A stretch of DNA of 16,493 nt from Candidatus Lindowiibacteriota bacterium (lineage in GTDB: Bacteria; Lindowbacteria; 2-12-FULL-62-27), in assembly GCA_023249255.1 (NCBI GenBank), contig JAHFCY010000046.1:1-16493 (forward strand), written 5' to 3'. Below are positions 12,195 through 16,493 of this stretch, piece by piece. The notes below the pieces were generated by a model. It was not told the DNA's origin, did no database searches, and saw only the letters and a program-made list of their open reading frames with translations. A program made the translations under genes and the position numbers. Within the stretch, counting starts at the first letter, position 1; the number at the start of each line of letters is the position of its first letter.

Positions 12195-13718
12195 TCAGCG
12201 GATTCGATAAATCTGAACTTCTCCTGCGCGGCCTTTGACTGACTTTTCGCCAACCCGTTCGGCGCTTTCGAGGACGCCTGCGGCGCGGGCGGTTTCCGCA
12301 GTGACCAGAATTTCTTCGGGTCCGGCGATGCCGACCAGGCGCGCCGCGACATTGACGACATCGCCGATGACCGTGTACTCCATCCGCATCGCCGATCCGA
12401 TGGTCCCGACCGTCGCCTCGCCGGTGGCGATTCCGATGCCAAAGCGGATGGGCCGACCGGAGCGCGTCTGGAGACCGCGGCAGGATTGGAGGATGTCCCG
12501 GGCGGCTTTGATGGCGCGAGCCGCGTGATCCTCCTGCGCGATGGGCGCGCCGAAAAAAGCGAGGACGCCGTCGCCGGTAAATTTGTCGATGGTCCCATTC
12601 TCACGAAAGATGGCCTGAATATTGGCGGCGAAAGCGCGATTGAGACATTCGAGCAATTCATCAGGCGGCAGGGTCTCCGCCAATGCCGTAAATCCGCGGA
12701 TGTCCGTGAAGAGCACGGTGAGCAGCCGCCGCTCGCCGCGAAGGCCCTGTGCCAAGCCTCCACGGCGGACTTCATCGGACACAGTCGGCGAAAAAAATCT
12801 GGAAAGCGACGCGCGCTCCTCGGTCTCGCGGCGGACTTCCTCGATCAAGCGCGTATTTTCAACCGCCGTGCCGGCGAGGTTTGCGAGAACGATGAGAAGA
12901 CGCAGGTCGGCGGCGTCGAACGCCCCGGCCCGGCCGCGGTTTTCGACCACCGCCGCGCCGACCACCCGCTCGCGCCCCCAGAGCGGCGCGACCATGGCTG
13001 AGCGGATAGTCCCGGCGGCCAGAGACGCGCCGGCGAGACGCTGATCCCGGCCGGCATCCGCCGTCACGAGCGCCTCGCCCGATTCCATCGCGCGCGATAG
13101 AAGCGTCCTGGAAAAGGGAAGCGAGTCGGCGGTTTCGATTCCCGCGCGGGAGAATACGAGTTCGGGTTTGGTATTGCCGCGCAAAAAAATTGCGCATCGA
13201 TCGGCATCAAGCGTATCGAGGATAATGCGCGCGATTTTCTGCAGGAGTTTTCCGATTTCGCGTTCGCCCTGAAGCGTCAATCCCAGTTGCAATAACGCCT
13301 CCAGCCGCGTCGCTTGCGCCGAAGGATCTTTGTGCGGCGATTTGCGGGAGGGTGGCATCGAAACCTGGGAATGGGCCTGCGTGGATTGAACCATCACAAC
13401 GTCCGTCGAATCCGTCCGCGCATCCTCTTCGTCACTCATGACCCGGAGAGAGACCGGCCCTATCCCGATGATATCACCCGGTTTTAATTCACGGGATTTG
13501 ATTCGCTCGCCGTTGACACTGGTTCCGTGAGCGGAACCCAAATCCTCAATCATCAATCCGACGCTTCGGCGGATGATCCGCGCATGTTTGCGGGAAACCG
13601 CCGGATCCGCCAGCGCGAGATCGTTGTCTGCCTGCCGACCGATCGAAACGACCTCTCCGATCGGAACTTCCCGGCCGCTTTCCGGCCCGTCAATGACGGC
13701 GATTCGGTACGCGGTCAT
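12195..13718 (-). CDS. FHA-GAF-class III adenylate cyclase
   Basis: The 507-aa protein has no membrane segment. An FHA domain (residues 1-95) shows the phosphothreonine-binding pattern: IGR at 26-28, SRKH at 42-45 and the NG turn at 69-70. A Pro/Ser/Gln-rich linker (100-135) leads to a GAF domain (about 138-290), which in other proteins binds cyclic nucleotides or other small ligands. A coiled linker (290-310) precedes the cyclase domain (about 330-480). That domain shows metal-binding Asp339 in LFTDIRGFT and Asp383 in DKFTGDGVLAFFG. Lys379 and Asp453 are the adenine-selecting pair, and Asn456 and Arg460 of VVNVAARL are transition-state residues. All key residues are present, so it should make cAMP as a homodimer. 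The ATG overlaps the stop of the propeller gene (ATGA), indicating translational coupling and probably shared function. Confidence 0.92.
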   Translation of the reverse strand: MTAYRIAVIDGPESGREVPIGEVVSIGRQADNDLALADPAVSRKHARIIRRSVGLMIEDLGSAHGTSVNGERIKSRELKPGDIIGIGPVSLRVMSDEEDARTDSTDVVMVQSTQAHSQVSMPPSRKSPHKDPSAQATRLEALLQLGLTLQGEREIGKLLQKIARIILDTLDADRCAIFLRGNTKPELVFSRAGIETADSLPFSRTLLSRAMESGEALVTADAGRDQRLAGASLAAGTIRSAMVAPLWGRERVVGAAVVENRGRAGAFDAADLRLLIVLANLAGTAVENTRLIEEVRRETEERASLSRFFSPTVSDEVRRGGLAQGLRGERRLLTVLFTDIRGFTALAETLPPDELLECLNRAFAANIQAIFRENGTIDKFTGDGVLAFFGAPIAQEDHAARAIKAARDILQSCRGLQTRSGRPIRFGIGIATGEATVGTIGSAMRMEYTVIGDVVNVAARLVGIAGPEEILVTAETARAAGVLESAERVGEKSVKGRAGEVQIYRIR

Positions 13719-16493
13719 GCCGCGGATCCGGTCTTGCCGCCGGAGATCGATTCCATCGCCAACCGTTGTTTCAAGATGCGATCGACCGCTCCGTGTTGAC
13801 GCGACACGATGGGAATCCGGCGGATGCGGGAAAAGCGAGGACTGAAAACCCCCGATGGTCTAAGCGTAATTGACAGAATGGAGCCTCGCGGATACGGATC
13901 CCAGCGAAACGATTCGATGCGGCTCCATGGAGTCAATCCGCCGAGGGCGGCAATTCCTTCTTCGCGCAGAGCTGTACCGAAGGTTCCTTGTAGGAAAAAC
14001 AGGATTCCGAGAGTAAGACGAAAGAGCGCAATCAAATAACTGGTATAAAACTCCGGCCCGGAAGAAATTCTCTGTATTTCCATCCATGCGACGTAAATAA
14101 GGAACAATCCCAACACCGGCAATATCCAAGATCGGCTGCGTTCCAGCCGAACGAGCACGCGGCCGGCAAGACTCGTCCTGTAAACTCCGTAAGAGAGAAT
14201 AATCCAGAAGAATAAAATTCCTATTAGAAGAAACATTTCAAATTTTCCGGCGCCGAAACAGAACCGCACAACCAAAGCCAGGCATCCGATCGCCGCGAAA
14301 AATAAAAGCCGCGAGCGACCCGTTTCAGAAAAATAGCGGGCGGCAGACTCCCGCCCCCAACGAATGACGGCGCCGACGTAAGCCACGAATCCACCGACAA
14401 CCATCATCACCACCCAAACCAAAAATATCAACGCAAGGGGTGGTCTGGGACGAGTCCGTGCCTGCGTTCGTCTTGAAACGGGAGTCGCGTTCTCCATCTT
14501 GGATTTGATCAGTCGATCGACCTCGGCCGTAATGGCCGCGAAAAAAGTGTCCGGAGACTTTGTGACAGAAGGAATCCAAACCGATCCGGCAGTGTCGAAT
14601 TCAAGCCGGTAGTCCCGGCCGGCCAAGTTGCATGGTTCGCTGACATGCCGAACCTCCGAACTCCCGACCGGCCGCGTGTCATCAAAGTCGCGGATGAGCC
14701 AGCCATCAAGCGATGAGATCAAACCATTGCAGTCATCGTCCACAATCATGACTTCGCGAACGGACGCATCGATTAAGACCGGACAGCGCCAGACAAAGGA
14801 ACGGTTGGGATAAATGCTGTCGGCATCGAGATTCCCGATTTTCCAACGTGAGACAAACGTATAAAACATTCCCTTGCCCACAAGTTGGACATCCGGCCAT
14901 ACAAGCAAGCCGTGAGAATGTTCAAGTTGACCCTGCCACGTGTTAACGGGATTGTTAAAGGGATTTTTGTCGCCGTCCCAATCTACATAAACGGTATGAG
15001 CCGGGCGGTTGTTATTGTCCTTCGGGTATTCTGACTTCACGCCGATTTCGATTCCCCGGCCGGAAATGAGAATTTTCGTCTTGTGGTCAATCAGCGGGAA
15101 AACGGGTGTATGTTCACTTGCATATCCAAGTCTCGGTACGGGAGACGCGATGAAGGAGAGAGGCGTGGATATTCCGGCCGATGAAACGCGGCGCGGATTT
15201 TCTGCAAGCAATATGCCTGCTTCATTTGAGATATTGATCGGCACAACCAGATCCGTGCGGCCGTCCCCATTCACATCGCCGATGGCAACGCAGATGGGCC
15301 CATCATTCGCCACAGGAAATTTTCTTGCATGGCCAAAATTTCTGCCCCCATTGCCGTAAATGACGTTGACCCCATCCGGTCCCCCGACCGCCACGGCCAG
15401 ATCGATTCGGCCGTCATTGTTGAGATCCCCGACTGCAACGGCCTTCGGTGAGCTCCCGACATCGATGCTTTCCCGCGGACGAAACCGCCCGTCGCCAAGG
15501 CCGAGCAGAATGTGAATTTTGCGCGTCGATATGTCCGCGATGGCAAGGTCCGTCTTGCCGTCTCCATCGAAATCTCCCGGCGCCGCATACACGAGGGAAG
15601 GTCCAAACGAAGCGCTTACGGTTTGTATGGATGCATCAAATCCTCCGCCGGGCCGGCCCAGCGAGACGCTGATGAATCCCACTTTATGAGGCATGGCACG
15701 AAAATGCGTGCCGACGATGTCCTTCACGCCGTCATTGTTAAAATCCGCCACGGCTATGGATATAGGCCAGCCGCTCGCATACTGCGTCGGAGATGAGAAC
15801 TCCCCGGCGACGGCGCCTTTGAAGACGGTGACTGAATCCACCGACTGGTGTTGCAGGATCAAATCCATGTGGCCGTCGCCATCCAAATCGTCGCAGAGAA
15901 TTTGATGCGGGTATTTCAAAGGTACATTCAACCTTTTTTGCGGAGCAAACTTGCCTCCGCCCAATGACATGATCACGCTGATGTCTCTTGAGCCGGCGTT
16001 GACCGACGCGATGTCCGGCAGTCCATCCCCGTTGAGATCGGCAATGGCGATGGAAGCCGGCGAATCGCCGACAGGCACTTTTATCAAGGGGCGGAATTGG
16101 CCATTTCCCAACCCGAAGAGAACACTCAAGTCGTCGGCGTTGGAATTCGCAGTGACGATGTCCAGGAACCCGTCCTTGTTCAAATCGGCCAATTTCAAAT
16201 CCCCGGGACGCTCTCCCACACTCCATCTTTCAGATTGCCGGACGAACTCGGTCGGCGGCTCTTCCGATCGAGGTGACCCGTCCGCGCGTGGCGTCAGGAA
16301 ATTCAAAGACGGTGTAACGACCGGGCTGTATGAAGTCGGCGTTGCATCCGGCTGCGGTCCGGCCAACTGCAATTTCGATTGCAAAAACATGGAGCCAGCC
16401 GCCGCGGCGGCAAGAATCGCGAGAAACGTGGACGCGGCGAGGATAAAAGCTCGGGTCGTGGATTTTTTGGACGGAGTTTCGAGCGGCGGCAAC
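13715..16493 (-). CDS. Membrane-anchored FG-GAP/VCBS seven-repeat beta-propeller protein (5' end at window edge)
   Basis: About 925 codons are visible, to a TTG at 16490-16492. The true start may be that TTG or lie beyond the window. A basic N-terminal stretch and one helix (14-37) anchor the protein. Residues 90-430 hold seven calcium-loop repeats of the form D-x-[DN]-x-D-G-x-x-D, starting at residues 103, 152, 202, 250, 307, 356 and 406. Their 48-57 residue spacing is that of a seven-bladed FG-GAP propeller. Residues 431-650 form a second beta-rich region with further acidic loops (DWDGDKNPFNN, DDDCNG). Five helices follow near 686-711, 728-746, 751-771, 788-805 and 816-836. Basic loops after the first and third of these put the propeller outside and the C terminus inside. 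The last 85 residues (EEGIAALGG, then W-SRIESFRW) resemble small bacterial PH-like/DUF5673 domains. Partners are unknown. It overlaps the cyclase gene by 4 bp. Confidence 0.85.
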   Translation of the reverse strand, partial: LPPLETPSKKSTTRAFILAASTFLAILAAAAAGSMFLQSKLQLAGPQPDATPTSYSPVVTPSLNFLTPRADGSPRSEEPPTEFVRQSERWSVGERPGDLKLADLNKDGFLDIVTANSNADDLSVLFGLGNGQFRPLIKVPVGDSPASIAIADLNGDGLPDIASVNAGSRDISVIMSLGGGKFAPQKRLNVPLKYPHQILCDDLDGDGHMDLILQHQSVDSVTVFKGAVAGEFSSPTQYASGWPISIAVADFNNDGVKDIVGTHFRAMPHKVGFISVSLGRPGGGFDASIQTVSASFGPSLVYAAPGDFDGDGKTDLAIADISTRKIHILLGLGDGRFRPRESIDVGSSPKAVAVGDLNNDGRIDLAVAVGGPDGVNVIYGNGGRNFGHARKFPVANDGPICVAIGDVNGDGRTDLVVPINISNEAGILLAENPRRVSSAGISTPLSFIASPVPRLGYASEHTPVFPLIDHKTKILISGRGIEIGVKSEYPKDNNNRPAHTVYVDWDGDKNPFNNPVNTWQGQLEHSHGLLVWPDVQLVGKGMFYTFVSRWKIGNLDADSIYPNRSFVWRCPVLIDASVREVMIVDDDCNGLISSLDGWLIRDFDDTRPVGSSEVRHVSEPCNLAGRDYRLEFDTAGSVWIPSVTKSPDTFFAAITAEVDRLIKSKMENATPVSRRTQARTRPRPPLALIFLVWVVMMVVGGFVAYVGAVIRWGRESAARYFSETGRSRLLFFAAIGCLALVVRFCFGAGKFEMFLLIGILFFWIILSYGVYRTSLAGRVLVRLERSRSWILPVLGLFLIYVAWMEIQRISSGPEFYTSYLIALFRLTLGILFFLQGTFGTALREEGIAALGGLTPWSRIESFRWDPYPRGSILSITLRPSGVFSPRFSRIRRIPIVSRQHGAVDRILKQRLAMESISGGKTGSAA

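Follow-up and report, generated by a model that had tools for sequence, protein, structure and literature searches.

Control of a second-messenger cyclase by a forkhead-associated (FHA) domain has been described in Bdellovibrio, where the FHA domain of DgcB controls the cyclase through a phosphopeptide (PMC6733907). Sensing by a beta-propeller has been described for PknD, a receptor Ser/Thr kinase in which an extracellular propeller serves as the sensor (PMC3322341). In Mycobacterium tuberculosis, FHA genes are clustered with kinase genes (PMC1262709), and the principle of such clustering is, therefore, already known. In the open-access papers that were searched, we found neither a published pair of an FHA-GAF-cyclase and a kinase nor a paper on the FHA-GAF-cyclase family.

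The locus described here lies at one end of a 16,493-nucleotide stretch of Candidatus Lindowiibacteriota DNA (hereafter, the window), which is the complete contig C241 of a fragmented assembly (3.35 Mb in 366 contigs, 88.7% complete). The phylum is sampled by three genomes, and two genomes of the same family (G001 and G002) were available for testing. An earlier note, made from the sequence alone, had proposed that a propeller-membrane protein and a cyclase, encoded by overlapping genes in the window, form a transmembrane sensing system.

An FHA-GAF-cyclase with intact motifs

The gene at 12195-13718 (minus strand) encodes a cytosolic FHA-GAF-class III adenylate cyclase of 507 amino acids with no transmembrane (TM) segment, as assigned from its open reading frame, Pfam matches, an alignment with seven relatives, and the catalytic residues. 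On the same strand, the FHA domain occupies residues 24-87 (13458-13649; PF00498, 8.3e-20), the GAF domain residues 155-288 (12855-13256; PF13492 and PF01590, about 7e-15), and the class III nucleotide cyclase domain residues 333-505 (12204-12722; PF00211, 1.8e-21). The three motifs that together define a phosphothreonine-binding FHA domain (PMC1262709) are all intact, namely GR at residues 27-28, SxxH at 42-45, and NG at 69-70.

The earlier note held that the cyclase keeps every catalytic residue, and all six were indeed located: D339 and D383 for the metal, K379 and T449 on the adenine side, and N456 and R460. Across 38 aligned rows, K379 was near-invariant and the other five were invariant. 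The protein, in other words, possesses the two metal-binding Asp, the base-binding Lys plus Asp/Thr, and the transition-state Asn and Arg by which class III nucleotide cyclases are recognized. In this family a Lys/Thr pair on the base goes with ATP; the combination of K379 and T449 suggests ATP as the predicted substrate, and the product would then be cAMP. Solved class III adenylate cyclases (2w01, 1wc0/1wc1, and CyaB 3r5g) matched the catalytic domain with E values down to 2e-30, and no solved structure matched the entire FHA-GAF-cyclase order. No second FHA-GAF-cyclase was found in the window genome, in which the next best matches examined consisted of a cyclase domain and a partial GAF without FHA.

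The linker between the FHA and GAF domains (residues 91-135; 13314-13448 of the window) contains the Thr motif STDVV, and the corresponding linkers of relatives carry clade-conserved Thr motifs of their own: GVTVVA in myxobacteria, ATIVR in Gemmatimonadota, and GHTQV in Acidobacteriota. In these linkers, a Thr is often followed two positions later by a hydrophobic residue, an observation to be taken as a lead only. By analogy with DgcB, these motifs are possible candidates for self-phosphorylation sites.

The propeller-membrane protein

The adjoining gene (13715-16492, minus strand) encodes at least 925 amino acids of a propeller-membrane protein, the reading frame of which is open to the edge of C241, so that its 5' end is cut off. 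As the earlier note had observed, its stop and the cyclase start share an ATGA, located at 13715-13718; both frames are on the minus strand. The visible part opens with LPPLETPSKKSTTR (residues 1-14), a stretch that is basic and rich in Pro, and a first transmembrane helix, TM1 (15-34; the two together at 16391-16492). These are followed by an FG-GAP beta-propeller with seven canonical calcium loops (15203-16237; PF13517, 3e-43; PF01839, 1.9e-25) and an extracytoplasmic region of about 255 residues (431-685; 14438-15202) that had no Pfam match and no detected relatives. Next come a five-helix bundle assigned by hydrophobicity (686-839; 13976-14437), the loops 2-3 and 4-5 of which are positively charged, and a small C-terminal domain of 86 residues (840-925; 13718-13975), which appeared as beta-beta-beta-alpha in a low-confidence model. 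All of these features are on the minus strand.

The seven loops start at residues 103, 152, 202, 250, 307, 356, and 406, and each has the DxDxDG signature with a further D at position 9, so that the seven-loop calcium propeller of the earlier note was recovered both by the loops and by the FG-GAP_3 match in Pfam (3e-43). Seven DxDxDG...D repeats are what identifies an FG-GAP beta-propeller; the fold is thus assigned from sequence, the single-sequence AlphaFold2 model of the whole protein (pLDDT 37) having been discarded. The five clustered hydrophobic helices (about 686-838) and the small C-terminal domain were likewise seen, along with an extra N-terminal helix (15-33) that had escaped the earlier count. 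Judging from charges and hydrophobicity, the propeller would lie outside, as previously suggested, while loops 2-3 and 4-5 and the C-terminus would be cytoplasmic, although the linker ahead of helix 2 is also strongly basic. AlphaFold2 prediction of the C-terminal 90 residues reached a pLDDT of 55 and led to no meaningful PDB match, and DUF5673 (PF18923) was rejected as the identity of this domain, as it scored 12.2 and 17 bits against a cut-off of 26.7 and was absent in G001 and G002.

As a start codon, the reading frame offers only a TTG within the four terminal bases of C241, and the next in-frame ATG is M35, located behind the first helix. Because the frame is open to the contig edge and has no proper start, a membrane protein that had been taken as complete probably lacks its N-terminus, which calls for caution, and its gene very probably continues beyond the end of C241. 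The visible part contains no kinase domain, the N-terminus being missing at the contig end. When compared by eye, without scoring, LPPLETPSKKSTTR and its helix resemble the juxtamembrane segments of Ser/Thr kinases from organisms of this family, which are likewise Pro-rich and basic (for example, SPPPPPSEAHKKK ahead of the helix in the L028 kinase). A separate frame with calcium loops, 4028 amino acids long and with five such motifs (L125:1-12087; G000:C204), also runs off the end of its contig.

The propeller-cyclase pair is not conserved

The earlier note had asked whether the two genes stay together across homologues, and in this respect the proposed pair did not hold. The membrane half had no match in 98 genomes, none in a pattern scan of 84,980 species, which reaches close relatives only, and nothing better than E 0.01 within the phylum (three genomes). 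The cyclase had matches in 82 of the 98 genomes, mostly to its catalytic domain alone. Together with its orthologues in G001 and G002 the window cyclase forms one clade (support 95/97); neither orthologue has a propeller neighbour, and neither genome has the membrane half. Thus, the two genes are unlinked in all relatives as far as could be tested, i.e., in two same-family genomes that both lack the membrane half. Among 36 FHA-GAF-cyclase loci, in which one genome is counted twice, the window locus alone had an FG-GAP gene within 1.5 kb. FG-GAP relatives as such were found in 113 of 241 genomes, with several in the window genome; the best 29 propeller relatives had no kinase or cyclase beside them (about 1.5 kb on each side) and included no kinase-propeller fusion. 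The ATGA overlap is weak evidence for the pair because unrelated genes on C241 are about equally tight: acyl-CoA dehydrogenase and glutaredoxin are separated by 5 nt, and MTHFR and RNase H by 2 nt. Tight gene packing is, in fact, general on this contig.

These results bear directly on the possibility that the propeller protein is a stand-alone receptor that switches its co-translated cyclase directly, through the cytoplasmic loops or the C-terminal domain. The common strand and the overlap would fit such an arrangement, as would the predicted cytoplasmic C-terminus of the propeller protein and the fact that the cyclase has neither a membrane segment nor an extracellular sensor of its own. However, the cyclase relatives, including the two family-mate orthologues, have no propeller neighbour, the membrane half is without relatives, the overlap is hardly tighter than the spacing of unrelated genes, and the supposed receptor is itself incomplete at its 5' end; we therefore regard a direct switch as unlikely. 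Less likely still is that the gene of an FG-GAP surface protein has only recently come to lie upstream of a cyclase that works on its own, with no functional link, a reading that agrees with the abundance of FG-GAP relatives, the uniqueness of the pairing to the window genome, and the general tightness of C241, but sits poorly with a four-base overlap suggestive of shared transcription and a membrane half unusual for an FG-GAP surface protein, and for which three genomes of the phylum are too sparse a sample to separate recent insertion from loss.

Ser/Thr kinases adjoin many FHA-GAF-cyclases

Of 34 FHA-GAF-cyclase loci (the 36 loci minus the window and one duplicate genome), 13 had a Ser/Thr kinase at a distance of at most 1.5 kb, compared with 1 of 52 non-FHA cyclases (Fisher p = 1e-5); this test is confounded by taxonomy because many of the non-FHA loci are cyanobacterial. 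When cyclases of the same genomes (G000 and relatives) were compared, which reduces this confounding without removing it, a kinase stood by 9 of 15 FHA cyclases and by 2 of 27 non-FHA cyclases (Fisher p = 0.0004); in one of the latter two cases, the kinase domain was within the same protein. The remaining 21 of the 34 loci had no kinase within 1.5 kb, some of their flanks being short. In G002, three kinases in a row lie directly upstream of the cyclase, and the last abuts its start; in G001, 394 bp separate the cyclase from the terminal member of a large kinase cluster. In a third genome (G026:C13, L032:4299-7181), a 960-amino-acid protein with CHASE2, a weak cyclase-like domain, and a Ser/Thr kinase domain is encoded directly upstream of the FHA-GAF-cyclase. 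This adjacency supports the suggestion of the earlier note that the FHA domain may read a phosphorylated partner, and the recurrent kinase neighbour offers a specific and testable partner for FHA cyclases. No propeller was found on other kinases of the same family of organisms.

Two further observations were made on these kinases. About a dozen Ser/Thr kinase genes are packed into 21 kb adjoining the G001 orthologue of the FHA-GAF-cyclase (G001:C33, about 64000-85000; L161, L162). Several kinases of the family (L161:34-1299, L028:8928-10151, L168, and L163) terminate in helix-hairpin-helix (HHH_3) domains, either behind a transmembrane helix or without one, an odd location for this usually DNA-binding fold.

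Kinases of the window genome and a possible missing neighbour

Four kinase genes above the Pfam cut-off were found in the window genome, none of them on C241. Two (A and B) are in tandem on contig C233 with a four-base, ATGA-type overlap, and kinase B is cut off at the contig end; its remainder was not found on any other contig of the genome. Kinase A is orthologous (support 98/99) to the kinases that adjoin the cyclase orthologues of G001 and G002. C233 is oriented as needed to lead into C241, and the resulting order would parallel the kinase-kinase-kinase-cyclase order of G002. A search for a terminal overlap joining C241 to C233 or to another contig was negative, and the GC content of the two contigs differs (0.586 for C241 vs 0.546 for C233), for which reasons the join is one that we infer; nonetheless, C233 and C241 are probably neighbours in the genome. 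That the propeller protein is fused to a kinase, as the C-terminus of kinase B or of a third kinase, rather than being encoded by a separate gene, is a more tentative proposition.

Another kinase gene of G000 (C200, L126:4918-9204) encodes a 1428-amino-acid Ser/Thr kinase joined to an SF1 helicase (AAA_11/AAA_12) and an MTES_1575-type nuclease domain. It is conserved in a family-mate, with its orthologue in G001:C16 (L171:1326-5507), and looks like a defence-type protein.

A kinase-cluster model

Overall, we consider it somewhat probable (roughly 55%) that the cyclase is the effector of a Ser/Thr-kinase cluster, with the propeller either forming the sensory portion of a receptor kinase or acting as an accessory sensor. 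In such a scheme, an extracellular ligand or a calcium-dependent contact would be registered at the propeller, and the signal would pass across the helices. A membrane kinase, to which the propeller is presumably fused or with which it acts, would then phosphorylate a Thr, whether its own, that of a partner, or one within the FHA-GAF linker of the cyclase itself. The resulting phosphothreonine, the effect of which we take to be activating rather than inhibiting, would be bound by the FHA domain, and the GAF domain would add a small-ligand or dimer input. The cyclase dimer would change accordingly in a manner tuned by the GAF domain, and the class III domain would produce cAMP. If the cyclase indeed serves a kinase cluster, the propeller protein would most likely form the C-terminal end of a receptor kinase, with the kinase half lost at the contig break; alternatively, it may be a separate sensor encoded just downstream of the kinases.

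The most elaborate form of this model places a receptor kinase, a transmembrane helix, a seven-bladed FG-GAP propeller, a five-helix bundle, and a cytoplasmic tail in a single protein, its gene sharing a single operon of overlapping genes with those of a second kinase and the FHA-GAF-cyclase reader; we offer it as a speculative possibility. If true, a complete relay from receptor kinase to cAMP would reside in one cluster, and its receptor would have an architecture absent from the relatives examined. More generally, the kinase adjacency points to a way in which bacteria may convert Ser/Thr phosphorylation into a cAMP signal. Interest thus moves away from the pair of propeller and cyclase and towards a kinase cluster that the assembly has probably broken up: a membrane sensor that feeds a phosphothreonine-reading cyclase remains plausible, but the specific pair does not stand as a system. 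The observation of the earlier note is confirmed and its interpretation partly supported; the window cyclase is probably a variant of the kinase-associated FHA cyclases, its interest residing mostly in the kinase link and not in the propeller.

Comparison with known systems

The closest counterparts are the kinase-adjacent FHA-GAF-class III cyclases of myxobacteria (among them Hyalangium, Corallococcus, and Citreicoccus) and of G001 and G002, which share the full-length domain order with the window cyclase at about 31-39% identity and have identical catalytic and FHA residues. They differ in what adjoins them, which is directly a kinase in these relatives and a propeller-membrane frame without a start in the window. 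The G026:C13 locus (L032) resembles the window in that a membrane protein with an extracellular sensor is encoded directly ahead of the FHA-GAF-cyclase; there, however, CHASE2 is the sensor, and a kinase domain can be seen in the protein. DgcB, like the window cyclase, has an FHA domain ahead of a second-messenger cyclase, but its cyclase is a GGDEF domain (c-di-GMP), it has no GAF domain, and its phosphopeptide comes from its own N-terminus; the likeness is one of logic, not of membership. PknD would be comparable if the missing N-terminus of the window protein is a kinase, in that both would then be membrane proteins that sense the outside through a propeller. The propeller of PknD is six-bladed, whereas the window protein has a seven-loop FG-GAP propeller followed by 255 amino acids, five helices, and a cytoplasmic tail, and here too the likeness is an analogy and not membership.
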